DNA of 56,725 nucleotides. It comes from Desulfuromusa sp. GTDB lineage: Bacteria > Desulfobacterota > Desulfuromonadia > Desulfuromonadales > Geopsychrobacteraceae. The notes below the pieces were generated by a model, which made no database searches, was not told where the DNA came from, and saw nothing but the letters and a program-made list of their open reading frames with translations. The DNA is taken from NCBI GenBank assembly GCA_027858895.1, contig JAQIBX010000064.1, positions 1 through 56,725 on the forward strand, read 5' to 3'. Each line of letters starts with the position of its first letter. The stretch's first letter is position 1. Both the position numbers and the translations under genes were made by a program. Shown here in pieces: positions 38,809 through 43,379 of the stretch.

Positions 38809-39231
38809 TTAATGGAGATGTTTGGTCATCTCTAAAACATTTCTGTCTCCCTCCTGCGTATATCTTACCTGATCCATCAACTTGAAAATAATCTTGATGC
38901 CACGCCCCCCTTCATCGCTGGCACATGCTTTAAGTTTAGCCAGTGTTTCGATGTCAAACCCCTGCCCCTGATCGAAAACCTTGATTACCAGATCTTGATC
39001 AGAGGCTGAGATCGATACCCTTATATCCTTGTCCGGGTCACAGTCGTTGGCGTGGCGCATGGCGTTTGCTAAGGCTTCAGTCAGTACCAGGTTAAGCTGA
39101 TAGGCGAACTCGCGGCGGTTTCCTTGATAACTCTCCAGGGAATAAGCCAAGCTTTCGCCGATCCGTCCAATCATCCCAAGATATTTGGTCTGATTCGGAA
39201 CCGTTATGTCAATCTTAACCAGTTTTGACAT
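38809..39231 (-). CDS. RsbW-like anti-sigma/serine kinase (HATPase)
   Basis: A 140-residue GHKL ATPase of the anti-sigma type: N box LTEALANAMRHAND, G1 region VFDQGQGFDIE, G2 region DEGGRGIKIIFKLMD. Such proteins bind either a sigma factor or other targets and phosphorylate a STAS partner on Ser/Thr. I start at the ATG at 39231 (MSKLVKIDI); an upstream TTG at 39249 is possible. The neighbouring STAS gene, 30 nt upstream on the same strand, is the obvious partner. No sigma factor gene is present in the window, so the output may be a distant sigma or a non-sigma target. Confidence 0.9.
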   Translation of the reverse strand: MSKLVKIDITVPNQTKYLGMIGRIGESLAYSLESYQGNRREFAYQLNLVLTEALANAMRHANDCDPDKDIRVSISASDQDLVIKVFDQGQGFDIETLAKLKACASDEGGRGIKIIFKLMDQVRYTQEGDRNVLEMTKHLH

Positions 39232-39261
39232 GTGTATCTTTCTGCGCAAATTAGTTGCTGA

Positions 39262-39597
39262 TTAAAAGCTAGCCAAGGCTTCATCCTGGGTTGAGAAGAT
39301 TTCAAATACGCGATGGAGGCGTGTCAGTTCAAACATTGAACGAACTTGGGGCTGAAGGCAGCATAGTTTGAGGCTACCTTCGCGTGCGCTGGCATTTTTG
39401 AAGCCGGAAACCAGAGAGCCGAGACCGGACGAATCGATAAAGCGAACCGCGGTCAAGTCAATCACCAGGTTGCATTTCCCTTCATCAAACAGTTGGAGCA
39501 TCTGTTCTTTGAGATCCCCGCTGTTATGGGCATCCATGCGCTCTTCCTCGATGCTGATTTTAACAATGTCGCCCTGTTCGGTCATGTTCAACTGCAT
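39262..39597 (-). CDS. STAS anti-sigma factor antagonist
   Basis: A 111-residue STAS domain protein (SpoIIAA/RsbV type): NLVIDLTAVRFIDSSGLGSL contains the conserved phosphorylatable serine (the DSSGLG motif), followed by LKLCCLQPQVRSMFELT. Unphosphorylated, it would bind the RsbW-like kinase and free the kinase's target; phosphorylation by the kinase would reverse this. AAGGAG lies 7 nt before the ATG. It sits between the phosphatase fusion (100 nt upstream) and the kinase, in the order phosphatase-antagonist-kinase. Confidence 0.94.
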   Translation of the reverse strand: MQLNMTEQGDIVKISIEEERMDAHNSGDLKEQMLQLFDEGKCNLVIDLTAVRFIDSSGLGSLVSGFKNASAREGSLKLCCLQPQVRSMFELTRLHRVFEIFSTQDEALASF

Positions 39598-39697
39598 GTG
39601 GTTTCTCCTTCTTTGAAGTTTAGTGGTATTTACAATACCTTTTTGATTGTACCCTATTTATTTAAGAGGGTGACTGATAAATGGATGATTCTGGTTA

Positions 39698-42600
39698 TTA
39701 TTTTAAAACCTTCATGACAACCAGGGTAACATCATCGTTGAAATGACGCATTCCAGTGAAAATACGTCCCTGAATCATAATCCGGTCAATGAGCTCTTGT
39801 GGATCTAAATCCTCACACTCTTCAAGTAGCTTTCCCAGTCTTTCAATGCCGAAAAAAACGTTATCCTTATTCTCGGCTTCGATAATTCCATCGGTATAGA
39901 GAAGCAGAATATCTCCTGTTTCCAGGTCAGTAGCATTCTGTTCAAAGGTGATGTTGTTTTTGATGCCGAAAATCAACCCTTCAGCATCCAGATTCATAAT
40001 CTTCCGTTTCCGCTTTTTCCAGAGCAGGGGAGTGTTGTGCCCGGCATTTCCGTAAATCAAGCGGTGATTGACGGGGTTATATTGCAGGTAAAACATAGTA
40101 ACGAACAGTTCAGAACGATCCAGATCTTTGAGGAAATAGCTGTTGAGTGCCTGTAACATCTTAGCCGGTTGTTTGATGTTGTGCATACGAGCATGGATGA
40201 AGGTGCGTGTTTCTGCCATGATCAGTGCTGAACCAATATTGTGTCCTGATACATCGGCTATAATCAGGTCATATGAGGTGCTGTTGCGCTCAATAAAGTC
40301 GTAATAATCTCCTCCAACCTGATGGGCCGGGACACACAACCCTGCAATGGCAATATTTCCCAAGGTGGGCAAGTTTGTTGGGAGCAGACCTTTCTGAATA
40401 TCTTTAGCAATCTGCATTTCCCGTTCTTGTTCACGACCTTGGAGAAGTTTCTGTAACTGCTGATCGTTACGCCAGGCAATACCTATCTGCCCAGCCAGGT
40501 TTTCGAACAGAGCAATGAATTCATTGGTAAAAATCCCTTTGGCTGTTTTGGAAAAGGCCGACAGAATTCCGATGGGCTCTCCTTCGAAAACGATCGGAGT
40601 ATGCGCTAAACAGGTAATCCCATCGCGCTTGATATGCTCTGCCGAAGCTGGCTTTTCGATATGGGCGGTATCGTTGACAACGGTGGTGGCGTTAGACATA
40701 AATGCCTGACCAATATAGGTCTCCATATTGAGGTTGCGTTCAAATTGACCAAAATGCTCGGAAGATGTTCCAACCAAACTTTTGACTATCAGTGTCATGG
40801 ATTCCGGTTCCAGAAGGCGGATCACGCAGAGATCAAATTTGAATTGTTGGGCGAGTAATTCCAGGATGTTATCTAGGGTTTCCTGAAAATCTACTTCGCT
40901 GGAAACAATTTGTGCTGCATCGTAGAGCACACTCAGTTGCTCTCGGCTGGAAGCGTGGCTAATAGTGACCGTGCCAAAGATATCGAAAACATCTTCCATT
41001 TCACTACCGCGAGCGGACAGGTAATTATCCAGGATGATGCGTGCCGGAGCGGCTCCTACATGACCGGCCAGGGTGCGCTCGGCAAAATTTTTCAGGTTAG
41101 GGATTTCGTGATCTGAAAGATTGCCTTTGGCACTGATATCCTGCTGGCTCAAATATTCGGTTATGGCGGTCTGAGCAGGTTTTTTGCCAATGAATTTGGC
41201 CATCAGCTCAACAAATTCCATGATGGTAGGTGCTTTACTTATACGCTTCAATTTGCCCGGTTTAAGCGACTTTTCCACAAAAACATCGACAAATTTTTCA
41301 GCTTGAATTCTTTCTGACTTGGTCTGCGTGGCGAAGAAAGATAATGTTAAATAGGCAGCCAGGTTGAAAAGCATACTCCAGAACAGGGAGTGAGTATGAA
41401 TATCAAAACCGCGCAGGCCAAACAGTTCCAGAGGGTTCAGTAGGTGGATGCCATATGGGCCGTTTTGTAAAATATCTGAGTGGAGCCAGCCAGAGCGGAC
41501 AAATGCTGGAATTAACAGGGTATAAAACCAAAGGACAAAGCCGAAACTGATTCCAGCAATTGCCGCCTTGCTATTGGCTCTTTTCCAAAAAAGTGCGCCA
41601 ATGACGCCAGGTGCGAACTGAGTGGCTGCAGCAAAGGAGATCAGCCCAATATTGACCAGGGCGTAGGAATCACCAATGACCTTGAAATAGAAATATCCGA
41701 CGAAGATGACTCCGATAATCCCAAGTCGTTTGATGTTGATCAGTAACCCTGGAAAATTTTGCGCTTGAACATTCATTTTTAAAATAATTGGCATGACCAG
41801 GTGGTTGAGAATCATTGTTGCTATCGTCACCGAAGAAACCATGACCATCCCGGCAGAGGCAGATACTCCCCCGATAAAGACCAACAGGGCTAACCAGGGC
41901 TGTCCCGAAGAGAGCGGCAGAGTCAAAACAAAGTAATCAGCCTGGGTTGCGTCACCACCATTGAGTATTAACCCTCCAAGCGCAATTGGCAGGACAAACA
42001 GGTTCATCAGGAAAAGGTAGGCCGGAAATTTCCACATTGCTGCTTTGATATGTTGCTCATCAACATTCTCAGTAATCATGATGTGAAATTGCCGGGGTAA
42101 AAACATCACCGCTGCCATCGACAGGATAATAAGGGTAAACCATTTGGTGTAGGGGGTCTGCTCGGTGCCAAGGGTAAGTAAATCGCGACGTTCCGGGAAT
42201 TGTTCAAGAAAGCGCTGGAAAATATCAATGAAGCCATCGAATAAGCCATAGGTCACAAAAATCCCTACGGCAAGAAAAGCGATCAATTTCACTATAGATT
42301 CAAAGGCAACCGCAACGACCAGCCCTTCATGCTTTTCCGATGAATCAAGGGTTCTGGCACCAAACAGCATGCCGAAAATAGCTAGCAGGATGGCAACCAG
42401 AAATGCCGTGTCGATAGTTCCGGGCAGTTTAGACGCGTATGCGTATAAACCGGTGCCGGGAACGGCTAATGGTCCGGAAAGGATATCTAAAGTGTGGGAA
42501 ATGGCTTTTAGCTGCAGGGCAATGTACGGGGTGATCCCAAAAACTGCGAACAGAGTGACAATTGCGCCAAGAACGCTGGAACGATCATAGCGACTGGAAA

Positions 42601-42949
42601 GAAAGTCAGCAATGCTGGTAATATTCTGTTGTTTGCAGATGCGCACCATCTTGCGCAGTAAAAACCACCAGGCAAATGCAATCAGGGTTGGTCCCAGGTA
42701 GATCGGGAGAAATTCCAAACCACTGGTTGCTGCTTTGCCGACGCTGCCGTAAAATGTCCAACTTGTGCAATAGACAGCAAGCGACAACGAATAGACATGT
42801 GAATTTTTCAGCAGGCGGTGGCCGGTTTTTCGGCATCTTTCAGCATACCAGGCAACCAGAAACAACAGTGCAAAATAGCCAAGTGAGACGAGCAGAACGG
42901 TTTGTGTGGAAAAGATCGACATGAAGAAAATGGTCTTTGCCGGAATCAT
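39698..42949 (-). CDS. Na+/solute symporter-STAC-GAF-SpoIIE phosphatase fusion
   Basis: A 1083-residue membrane protein. Residues about 1-555 form an SSS/SLC5-type sodium symporter with some 13 helices, beginning MIPAKTIFFMSIFSTQT and containing YSLSLAVYCTSWTFYGSVG and ITENVDEQHIKAAMWKFPAY. About 569-648 is a four-helix linker (AERTLAGHVGAAPARIILD) matching the STAC type found between such transporters and histidine kinases. About 667-835 is a GAF domain (LYDAAQIVSSEVDFQETLD). About 845-1083 is a PP2C-like SpoIIE/RsbU phosphatase with EMQIAKDIQKGLLP, GGDYYDF (Asp881), IADVSGHN (Asp899) and DDVTLVV. Transporter-phosphatase instead of transporter-kinase is unusual. The target should be the STAS protein downstream. 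Solute unknown. It is coupled by ATGA to the small membrane protein upstream. Confidence 0.93.
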   Translation of the reverse strand: MIPAKTIFFMSIFSTQTVLLVSLGYFALLFLVAWYAERCRKTGHRLLKNSHVYSLSLAVYCTSWTFYGSVGKAATSGLEFLPIYLGPTLIAFAWWFLLRKMVRICKQQNITSIADFLSSRYDRSSVLGAIVTLFAVFGITPYIALQLKAISHTLDILSGPLAVPGTGLYAYASKLPGTIDTAFLVAILLAIFGMLFGARTLDSSEKHEGLVVAVAFESIVKLIAFLAVGIFVTYGLFDGFIDIFQRFLEQFPERRDLLTLGTEQTPYTKWFTLIILSMAAVMFLPRQFHIMITENVDEQHIKAAMWKFPAYLFLMNLFVLPIALGGLILNGGDATQADYFVLTLPLSSGQPWLALLVFIGGVSASAGMVMVSSVTIATMILNHLVMPIILKMNVQAQNFPGLLINIKRLGIIGVIFVGYFYFKVIGDSYALVNIGLISFAAATQFAPGVIGALFWKRANSKAAIAGISFGFVLWFYTLLIPAFVRSGWLHSDILQNGPYGIHLLNPLELFGLRGFDIHTHSLFWSMLFNLAAYLTLSFFATQTKSERIQAEKFVDVFVEKSLKPGKLKRISKAPTIMEFVELMAKFIGKKPAQTAITEYLSQQDISAKGNLSDHEIPNLKNFAERTLAGHVGAAPARIILDNYLSARGSEMEDVFDIFGTVTISHASSREQLSVLYDAAQIVSSEVDFQETLDNILELLAQQFKFDLCVIRLLEPESMTLIVKSLVGTSSEHFGQFERNLNMETYIGQAFMSNATTVVNDTAHIEKPASAEHIKRDGITCLAHTPIVFEGEPIGILSAFSKTAKGIFTNEFIALFENLAGQIGIAWRNDQQLQKLLQGREQEREMQIAKDIQKGLLPTNLPTLGNIAIAGLCVPAHQVGGDYYDFIERNSTSYDLIIADVSGHNIGSALIMAETRTFIHARMHNIKQPAKMLQALNSYFLKDLDRSELFVTMFYLQYNPVNHRLIYGNAGHNTPLLWKKRKRKIMNLDAEGLIFGIKNNITFEQNATDLETGDILLLYTDGIIEAENKDNVFFGIERLGKLLEECEDLDPQELIDRIMIQGRIFTGMRHFNDDVTLVVMKVLK

Positions 42950-43197
42950 GGGTCGCTCTTGTCCCCCACTATAGCGGAACTATCTTGCGAGCCACTTTCT
43001 ATGTAGCGTACAAAAAACCAGATAACGGCTATTGAGGCCGGCCAGCCGATAAAGAAATAGAGAACCAGAATCGGGATACCAAAAATCAGCCGTACGGTAT
43101 TGAATATTTGAATAAAAGGAAAATTGATCATGATCAAGCCAAGAATCAGGCAGAGAATCCAAGCCTCTCTGATTGAGCTTCTTTGTGACTCTTTCAT
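42946..43197 (-). CDS. small two-helix membrane protein upstream of the symporter
   Basis: 83 residues with two transmembrane segments (about 10-32 and 34-60: WILCLILGLIMINFPFIQIF, IFGIPILVLYFFIGWPASI) and a charged C-terminal tail. It resembles in size and place the small DUF3311/DUF4212-type subunits that precede SSS symporters. I start at the ATG at 43197 with AAGAGGT upstream; the stop overlaps the symporter start (ATGA). Probably an auxiliary subunit or assembly factor; no direct functional evidence. Confidence 0.75.
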   Translation of the reverse strand: MKESQRSSIREAWILCLILGLIMINFPFIQIFNTVRLIFGIPILVLYFFIGWPASIAVIWFFVRYIESGSQDSSAIVGDKSDP

Positions 43198-43379
43198 CGA
43201 CAGACCTCTTTTGAGCCTAGTAACTCCAAAAATCGACAACGATACATTTTGTTTTGACTGCACATGTTATAGACTAATCCCGAAAGAATAGAATTACAAC
43301 AATAATTACAAGTTACACATAGTAGAAAATTGTCTGTAATTTTAACTCTATAAAGTTGATTAGGCGATTTTTTAAGCAT

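Follow-up and report, generated by a model that had tools for sequence, protein, structure and literature searches.

A CbrA-like transporter receptor fused to a SpoIIE-type phosphatase, beside STAS and RsbW-like genes, in Desulfuromusa sp. and its relatives

How a transporter domain passes its signal to an output has yet to be explained for the SLC5-STAC family, in which work has centred on kinases (CbrA, CrbS). In Pseudomonas, cbrA is overlapped by the gene of CbrX, a hairpin of 58 residues (PMC6591292, PMC13022988), which cryo-electron microscopy has located on the SLC5 domain of CbrA (PMC13022988). Other combinations have also been noted, namely STAC with diguanylate cyclases (PMC5715377) and, for Actinobacteria, SSS proteins with GAF and PP2C_SIG domains (PMC7918813). 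In the case of phosphatases of the PPM type, it has been argued that dimerising helical linkers switch them and that kinases and phosphatases exchange sensors (PMC12143880); that text contains no mention of a symporter or transporter. In the literature covered, which did not extend to the 2015 STAC paper of Korycinski, we found no account of an SLC5 domain fused to SpoIIE and encoded next to STAS and RsbW. Here, we describe such a fusion in an operon of Desulfuromusa sp. (assembly GCA_027858895.1, contig JAQIBX010000064.1, positions 1 to 56,725 of the forward strand; this whole stretch of 56,725 nucleotides (nt) is called the window, and all positions refer to it). The operon belongs to a coherent and conserved system with a CbrA-like receptor as input and an RsbU/V/W-like switch as output. 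We read it as a CbrA-type transceptor in which a partner-switching phosphatase takes the place of the histidine kinase, a reading to which we assign a probability of about 0.6.

The operon, its conservation and its natural variants

The operon runs on the minus strand from 43197 to 38809, where the list of open reading frames (ORFs) holds four genes in the order small protein, fusion, STAS and RsbW-like protein. The genes and the parts of the fusion, with lengths in amino acids (aa) and the evidence for each, are the following.

42946..43197, minus strand: small two-helix membrane protein, putative CbrX-like accessory subunit, 83 aa (ORF, predicted helices, family conservation)
39698..42949, minus strand: SLC5-STAC-GAF-SpoIIE fusion, 1083 aa (ORF, Pfam, match to the CbrA chain, model)
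41270..42949, minus strand: SLC5 transporter domain, about residues 1-560 (10ed_A match, residue mapping, SLC5 folds)
40955..41269, minus strand: STAC-like two-hairpin linker, residues 561-665 (colinearity with CbrA, model helices, profile matches in kinase-output relatives)
40460..40942, minus strand: GAF domain, about residues 670-830 (Pfam GAF_2, Foldseek to 2qyb)
40385..40525, minus strand: predicted long helix connecting GAF to phosphatase, residues 809-855 (model)
39701..40432, minus strand: SpoIIE/PPM phosphatase domain, about residues 840-1083 (Pfam SpoIIE, structure matches, invariant aspartates)
39262..39597, minus strand: STAS anti-sigma-antagonist-like protein, 111 aa (Pfam STAS, TIGR00377, alignment, structures)
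38809..39231, minus strand: RsbW-like serine kinase or anti-sigma-like protein, 140 aa (Pfam HATPase_c_2, invariant motifs, RsbW structure)

An initial annotation of the window had placed four ORFs here with a small two-helix protein first, in agreement with the ORF list and the predicted helices, and the domain order it gave for the fusion is borne out by Pfam, the match to the CbrA chain and the model. Its description of the genes as tightly spaced holds for two joins, a 4-nt overlap of the small-protein stop with the fusion start and a gap of 30 nt from the STAS gene to the RsbW ATG, but not for the third, since 100 nt separate the fusion from the STAS gene. The exact 4-nt overlap of small gene and SLC5 gene is also present in 31 of the 49 loci examined. 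The small protein probably starts at the ATG at 43197, its longest frame beginning at a GTG at 43263. Scans of promoters and terminators gave signals no more frequent than in shuffles.

When the frequency of this gene order was checked across genomes, as the initial annotation had suggested, the operon proved to be conserved. Fifty fusions were taken, the window included; 46 of them have enough flank, and in 43 the four genes follow one another in this order on a single strand. The other three fusions (two at L044, one at L059) are paralogues, whose genomes also hold a complete operon (L043, L032). The four-gene order is likewise found in 36 of 39 named loci, a set that overlaps the first in genomes; the exceptions are L100, with a split profile match (small protein present), the Streptomyces locus L119, and L074, which is without all three partners. 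Frames shorter than 950 aa, among them the broken gene of L047, are outside these counts. In three single genomes (L017, L047, L096), the fusion gene has an in-frame stop or a broken frame, through decay or assembly error.

Some match to the fusion was found in each of the 60 genomes searched, that of the window included, several of these being contig-end fragments and those of G039 and G059 weak or confined to the phosphatase domain. In the class as a whole, a fusion-like match at 1e-100 is present in 215 of 244 genomes (own genome included), and an RsbW match at 1e-15 in 227. Weaker hits among the former, e.g., in G182, G187, G193 and G230, may come from relatives with a kinase output. Both occur in 209 genomes, neither in 11, RsbW only in 18 and a fusion-like match only in 6. 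The fusion match is thus missing in 11 of the 17 genomes lacking RsbW versus 18 of the 227 having it (Fisher p 7.5e-08, too small a value since the genomes are related; of the 29 genomes counted as lacking a fusion match, nine were identified by elimination). Named fusion hits, among the best 80 of at least 590 stretches, include Desulfuromusa, Desulfuromonas, Geopsychrobacter, Malonomonas, Geothermobacter, Geobacter, Citrifermentans and Geomonas.

The best evidence on how the parts belong together is provided by lineages that lack the transporter. In family f4, all 12 sampled genomes have RsbW and no fusion match, and at three loci (L161-L163) STAS and RsbW stand at the same syntenic place, as judged by eye, with the fusion gone. 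Among the five genomes sampled in g63, RsbW is present and a fusion match absent in four, and both are absent in one; at two loci (L170, L171), a bare SpoIIE protein, STAS and RsbW are encoded consecutively. G168 and G210 keep phosphatase-STAS-RsbW, with no match to SLC5 or to the small protein at those loci. At the five loci, neither the small-protein profile nor that of SLC5 gave a match (best 3.7 and 3.8 bits, respectively); for the small protein, this check included frames from 30 aa upwards. This natural dissection argues for the SpoIIE domain acting on the adjoining STAS protein and for the small protein going with the transporter, and it suggests a phosphatase-STAS-RsbW core to which CbrX-SLC5-STAC-GAF would be the sensor. 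The parts of the system, their conservation, their order and their modular loss can be read directly from the sequences. Moreover, the transporter-less variants, with a bare phosphatase or with no phosphatase, constitute ready-made controls.

The transporter front end, its small companion and its outputs

Residues 13-646 of the fusion match the solved SLC5-STAC chain of Pseudomonas CbrA (10ed_A) at 1.2e-77, with 191 identities over 590 aligned residues. The predicted model of the whole fusion has a mean predicted local distance difference test score (pLDDT) of 78 and a predicted template modelling score (pTM) of 0.53, and, among the matches listed, it resembles SLC5 structures with Z of 22-30 over about residues 11-561. 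The SLC5 assignment is based on this chain match and on this fold. They uphold the SLC5 identity of what had been annotated as a complete SSS/SLC5 symporter, although Pfam SSF (PF00474) gave no match in the fusion at E up to 0.1.

The pocket residues and the Na2 lysine of CbrA, as given in PMC13022988, were mapped through the 10ed_A alignment. K221 of the fusion aligns with the Na2-site K196 of CbrA, and a lysine at this position is retained in 32 of 32 aligned fusions. The histidine-pocket residues Y51, W55, F71, Y75 and F406 of CbrA are, like K196, identical in the window fusion; S53 and A56 are replaced by threonine and F248 by serine. Across the 32 fusions, serine occupies the F248 position in 28 and threonine the S53 position in 30. 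Judged by this mapping, the site is not degenerate, a state that the initial annotation had named as one that would count against its proposal. Because of the CbrA-like lysine in the Na2 site, the domain is probably proton-coupled rather than sodium-coupled, by analogy with CbrA; its substrate is probably not histidine.

In the region that follows, the model shows helices at 576-587, 589-600, 616-631 and 633-645, which pair into two hairpins, modelled with low confidence (block pLDDT of 51-77). We assign this segment to STAC because it is colinear with CbrA, because of the two predicted hairpins, and because the STAC hidden Markov model (HMM) matches kinase-output relatives at the same position.

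The small protein is predicted to consist of helices 6-33 and 37-73 (mean pLDDT 74), and that of the window matches no Pfam or NCBIfam family. Small-membrane families were considered for 30 members and rejected: DUF2852 was hit in 8 (best 0.0034), DUF3311 in 2 (0.029) and DUF4212 in 1 (0.028), and the window protein itself matched none of the three. The profile of its own family finds a match directly upstream of 58 of 61 phosphatase-output SLC5 genes (L119 among the 61), of 34 of 35 kinase-output ones (8/8 GAF-kinase, 26/27 other kinase) and of 4 of 6 cut SLC5 genes, a few loci representing one genome twice. These 96 are every family hit of at least 15 bits in 1.29 Mb, with no stray background. 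Columns N, P, F, P, W and I are common to both sub-families, two of them (I and N) hardly varying within the kinase set. Since it precedes SLC5 genes of either output and is missing where SLC5 has been lost, the small protein appears to belong with the transporter and not with the switch. By its place, size and shape it may be the counterpart of CbrX, its likeness in sequence being only to hairpins beside other CbrA-like kinases. CbrX would then be no peculiarity of Pseudomonas but probably a partner that accompanies SLC5-STAC receptors in general.

When SLC5 domains were placed in a tree (97 rows), the phosphatase fusions, 61 in number, grouped together (support 94, not starred); nearly all of them come from records labelled as kin of Desulfuromonadales or, less precisely, as Deltaproteobacteria. 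The Streptomyces chain L119, with the order SLC5-(weak STAC)-GAF-SpoIIE-HATPase_c_2, is placed among the kinase-output rows. One clade for all phosphatase rows was rejected by the approximately unbiased test (p-AU 2.6e-06) on 34 of the 97 rows, hand-picked after the tree had been seen and comprising 11 of the 61 main phosphatase rows, L119, 18 of the 27 histidine kinase rows and 4 of the 8 GAF-kinase rows. Six cut rows were excluded from both SLC5 trees, and the kinase labels in them are based on tail length and an H-box motif (neither motif in L123), Pfam having confirmed six. Because a single phosphatase clade is rejected, the phosphatase seems to have been joined to the SLC5-STAC transporter type at least twice. 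SLC5-STAC-GAF chains with a histidine kinase output are also encountered in Desulfobulbaceae and other deltaproteobacteria (L103, L104, L107, L110, L113-L115; Pfam on L103 and L110).

The phosphatase, its partners and the neighbouring genes

A profile search of the fusion, as proposed in the initial annotation, matched both expected Pfam domains of the output half, GAF at residues 686-826 (GAF_2 1.2e-14) and SpoIIE at residues 892-1081 (2.1e-46). HisKA and HATPase gave no Pfam match in the fusion, the output of which is SpoIIE. The GAF domain is retained in all 32 aligned fusions; it resembles 2qyb, a GAF domain from a protein of Geobacter sulfurreducens described as a putative membrane protein (43% identity and root mean square deviation 1.6 in Foldseek; Z 22.9 in the structure comparison that also gave the SLC5 folds), which probably stems from an orthologue of the fusion or from a kinase-output paralogue. 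Helix 809-855, predicted between GAF and phosphatase (block pLDDT 65-80), would be a linker helix of the type argued for in PMC12143880. Among the structure matches listed for the phosphatase are the PP2C domain of SiaA (Z 27.3), RsbU-RsbW of Rv1364c (Z 25.6) and RssB (Z 24.9). The annotated motifs GGDYYDF, IADVSGHN and DSSGLG were all found, and D881, D884, D899, D1020, D1072 and D1073 are invariant in 32 of 32 fusions.

The STAS protein matches Pfam STAS (1.4e-22), TIGR00377 above its cut-off, and anti-sigma-factor-antagonist structures, with D55-S56-S57 invariant in the 22 orthologues aligned. For the RsbW-like protein (Pfam HATPase_c_2, 3.5e-22), the nearest structure is RsbW 6m36 (3e-17 with a profile), and E52/N56, D87xGxG91 and GRG109-111 are invariant in 22 of 22 aligned. 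We take the invariant acidic residues, the STAS serine and the N-box residues of the kinase to have functional roles. A PPM phosphatase, a STAS protein with the conserved serine and an RsbW-type kinase, encoded together, represent a partner-switching gene set. In the genome of the window (98.7% complete), PF01740 (STAS) matches once, and of the PF13581 hits one is a strong match to a stand-alone protein of RsbW type, the other eight being weaker, one of them above cut-off, and lying within longer frames (419-774 aa). The conserved gene order, the bare phosphatase kept with STAS-RsbW and these single matches are in line with the earlier suggestion that the adjoining STAS and RsbW proteins are the likely partners. 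The core reaction of phosphatase, STAS and RsbW is likely to take place.

Two SpoIIE proteins are present in this genome in all. The second (L042 1912-4083, contig C49) is a SiaA-like dCache-HAMP-SpoIIE protein, whose three scanned neighbours are RdgC-, DnaJ- and PilZ-like, none of them STAS or RsbW. It may share the STAS protein of the window, so that two inputs would meet on one STAS. PF09345, used to look for a SiaC-type substrate of this second phosphatase, gave no match, but the controls were also silent, so that this is no evidence of absence.

Around the operon, no ORF resembles a sigma factor (ORF list, by eye), as had been noted in the initial annotation. The neighbours were surveyed in the 25 largest clusters, shadow frames being removed by eye. 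Adjacent genes were rejected as the target of the RsbW-like protein: the lgt-, HAD phosphatase- and TPR lipoprotein-like genes and the opposite-strand peptide-uptake genes (by eye) reflect synteny. Many relatives (at L161-L171 and elsewhere) have, upstream of the operon, an APH-like gene whose product carries an AAA_33 kinase domain. It remains beside STAS-RsbW after fusion loss, and it is absent upstream of the operon of the window. This kinase-like gene, a cluster of 28 loci (Pfam on three), does not have the look of a target.

The proposed mechanism, its rivals and known relatives

In the mechanism that we propose, the CbrX-like hairpin would pack onto the SLC5 domain, which would bind, and perhaps carry, a small solute with protons. 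The conformation of SLC5, relayed by STAC, and the ligand or state of GAF would together set the order of the helix leading into the SpoIIE dimer. An active phosphatase would strip the phosphate from the adjoining STAS protein, and bare STAS would capture the RsbW-like kinase, which would then release its target; with the phosphatase at rest, RsbW would rephosphorylate STAS and rebind the target. We infer the catalysis on the adjoining STAS, the dimerisation through the helix, and the coupling to transporter state together with its sign. Control of the phosphatase by the state of the transporter is plausible, with the odds about even.

Several points weigh against this proposal. In CbrA, histidine had no observed impact on the kinase (PMC7096432) and the SLC5 domain has been described as not essential for signal perception (PMC9100948), which implies that transporter control may be weak here as well, and both papers caution that the sensing by CbrA may take place within the cell; CbrX is dispensable for growth on histidine (PMC13022988). 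The f4 genomes indicate that the switch can run without the fusion, and the paralogues at L044 (two full-length fusions on one contig stretch) and L059 (one) have no adjoining STAS or RsbW match. No PDB chain with the CbrX sequence was found, and the comparison with CbrX is therefore not by sequence. In the case of the STAC-like linker, the HMM gives just 6.8 bits on CbrA, though colinear, and the segment searched alone has no PDB match, so that this part of the initial annotation is upheld by CbrA colinearity, the hairpins and the kinase relatives and not by a stand-alone search. Furthermore, as the cytosolic PAS domain is a favoured sensor of CbrA (PMC7918813), the GAF domain of the fusion is a serious sensor candidate. 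It could be the real sensor, responding to a cytosolic metabolite or redox state, with SLC5-STAC serving to anchor it to the membrane, to frame the dimer or to modulate the output slowly, so that transport would be incidental. The CbrA findings just cited speak for such a role, as do the retention of GAF in 32 fusions and its kinase-output counterparts in other deltaproteobacteria. However, the SLC5 pocket and the Na2 lysine are conserved in the same 32 fusions, the near-constant presence of the CbrX-like subunit beside SLC5 suggests a role beyond anchoring, and in CbrA the kinetics of autophosphorylation are modulated by the SLC5 domain (PMC7096432). That GAF is the real sensor we regard as rather unlikely.

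The output side admits further explanations. The genome of the window encodes four PF04542 sigma factors, RpoD, an RpoS-like factor, one of FliA/WhiG type and one of extracytoplasmic function (ECF) type. CrsA/CrsR of Shewanella provide a precedent for RpoS being held by an anti-sigma-type partner, and the RsbW-like protein might hold the stationary-phase factor RpoS in the same way. The RpoS-like factor, which has RpoS as its best match, below curated cut-offs, and adjoins an nlpD-like gene (by eye), has only three PF04542 companions; in a test of 25 genomes, all 12 with RsbW have at least two RpoS/RpoD-type matches and 3 of the 13 without RsbW have one. Nevertheless, G078, G067 and G052 keep RsbW and the fusion with one RpoS-model match each, a count to be read knowing that the model also hits RpoD and that a diverged RpoS could escape it. 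The single-contig genome G078, at 100% completeness, combines RsbW and two fusion matches with a sole RpoS-model match at RpoD level. An obligatory role of RpoS as target is not supported by these counts, and we find it improbable that RpoS is what the RsbW-like protein holds. FliA is equally unsupported as an obligatory target: G061 and G068 retain both RsbW and the fusion, and neither gave a FliA match at 1e-35. By presence and absence, the co-occurring sigma factors that the initial annotation had pointed to, RpoS-like and FliA, each look dispensable. Their absence from some operon-bearing genomes, and that of a sigma factor or evident target encoded nearby, would suit another reading, in which the phosphatase end of the fusion serves to regulate the transporter that carries it, with STAS and RsbW feeding back on uptake and no transcription factor being freed. 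Such feedback is very unlikely: STAS and RsbW persist after transporter loss (12/12 f4, 4/5 g63), so that their job is independent of it.

If the reading as a CbrA-type transceptor with a phosphatase output is true, nutrient uptake or an internal cue could turn directly into altered gene regulation. The phosphatase version, with its likely substrate and the opposing kinase in one operon, would offer a soluble, measurable readout. A broader proposal, which we make tentatively and which may well go too far, is that throughout the class STAS phosphorylation is set by how far a proton-coupled SLC5 domain with an obligate CbrX-type subunit is occupied or turns over, as read via STAC, that the target is neither RpoS nor FliA, and that SLC5-STAC-CbrX is a portable cassette, joined repeatedly to phosphatases and kinases.

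Among the systems described so far, the Actinobacteria SSS-GAF-PP2C_SIG-HATPase proteins (PMC7918813) have SLC5, GAF, SpoIIE and an RsbW-type domain in common with the operon, L119 showing the same order; they differ in carrying the kinase-type domain within the chain, and L119 has no STAS match within 700 nt downstream. CbrA/CbrX of Pseudomonas (PMC6591292, PMC13022988) share the colinear SLC5-STAC, the Na2 lysine, most pocket residues and the overlapping upstream two-helix protein, whereas PAS, kinase and response regulator stand there in the place of GAF and SpoIIE with STAS and RsbW. From RsbU/RsbV/RsbW and SpoIIE/SpoIIAA/SpoIIAB of Bacillus, which have the SpoIIE-type phosphatase, the DSSGLG STAS and the RsbW-type kinase motifs, the present switch is set apart by a membrane transporter as sensor and by the lack of an adjacent sigma factor. 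Finally, the SiaA/SiaB/SiaC/SiaD system of Pseudomonas aeruginosa is alike in its membrane-bound PP2C, that of SiaA having the top Z of the phosphatase matches listed, but the sensor here is SLC5-STAC-GAF, and the STAS protein and kinase are of RsbV/RsbW type.

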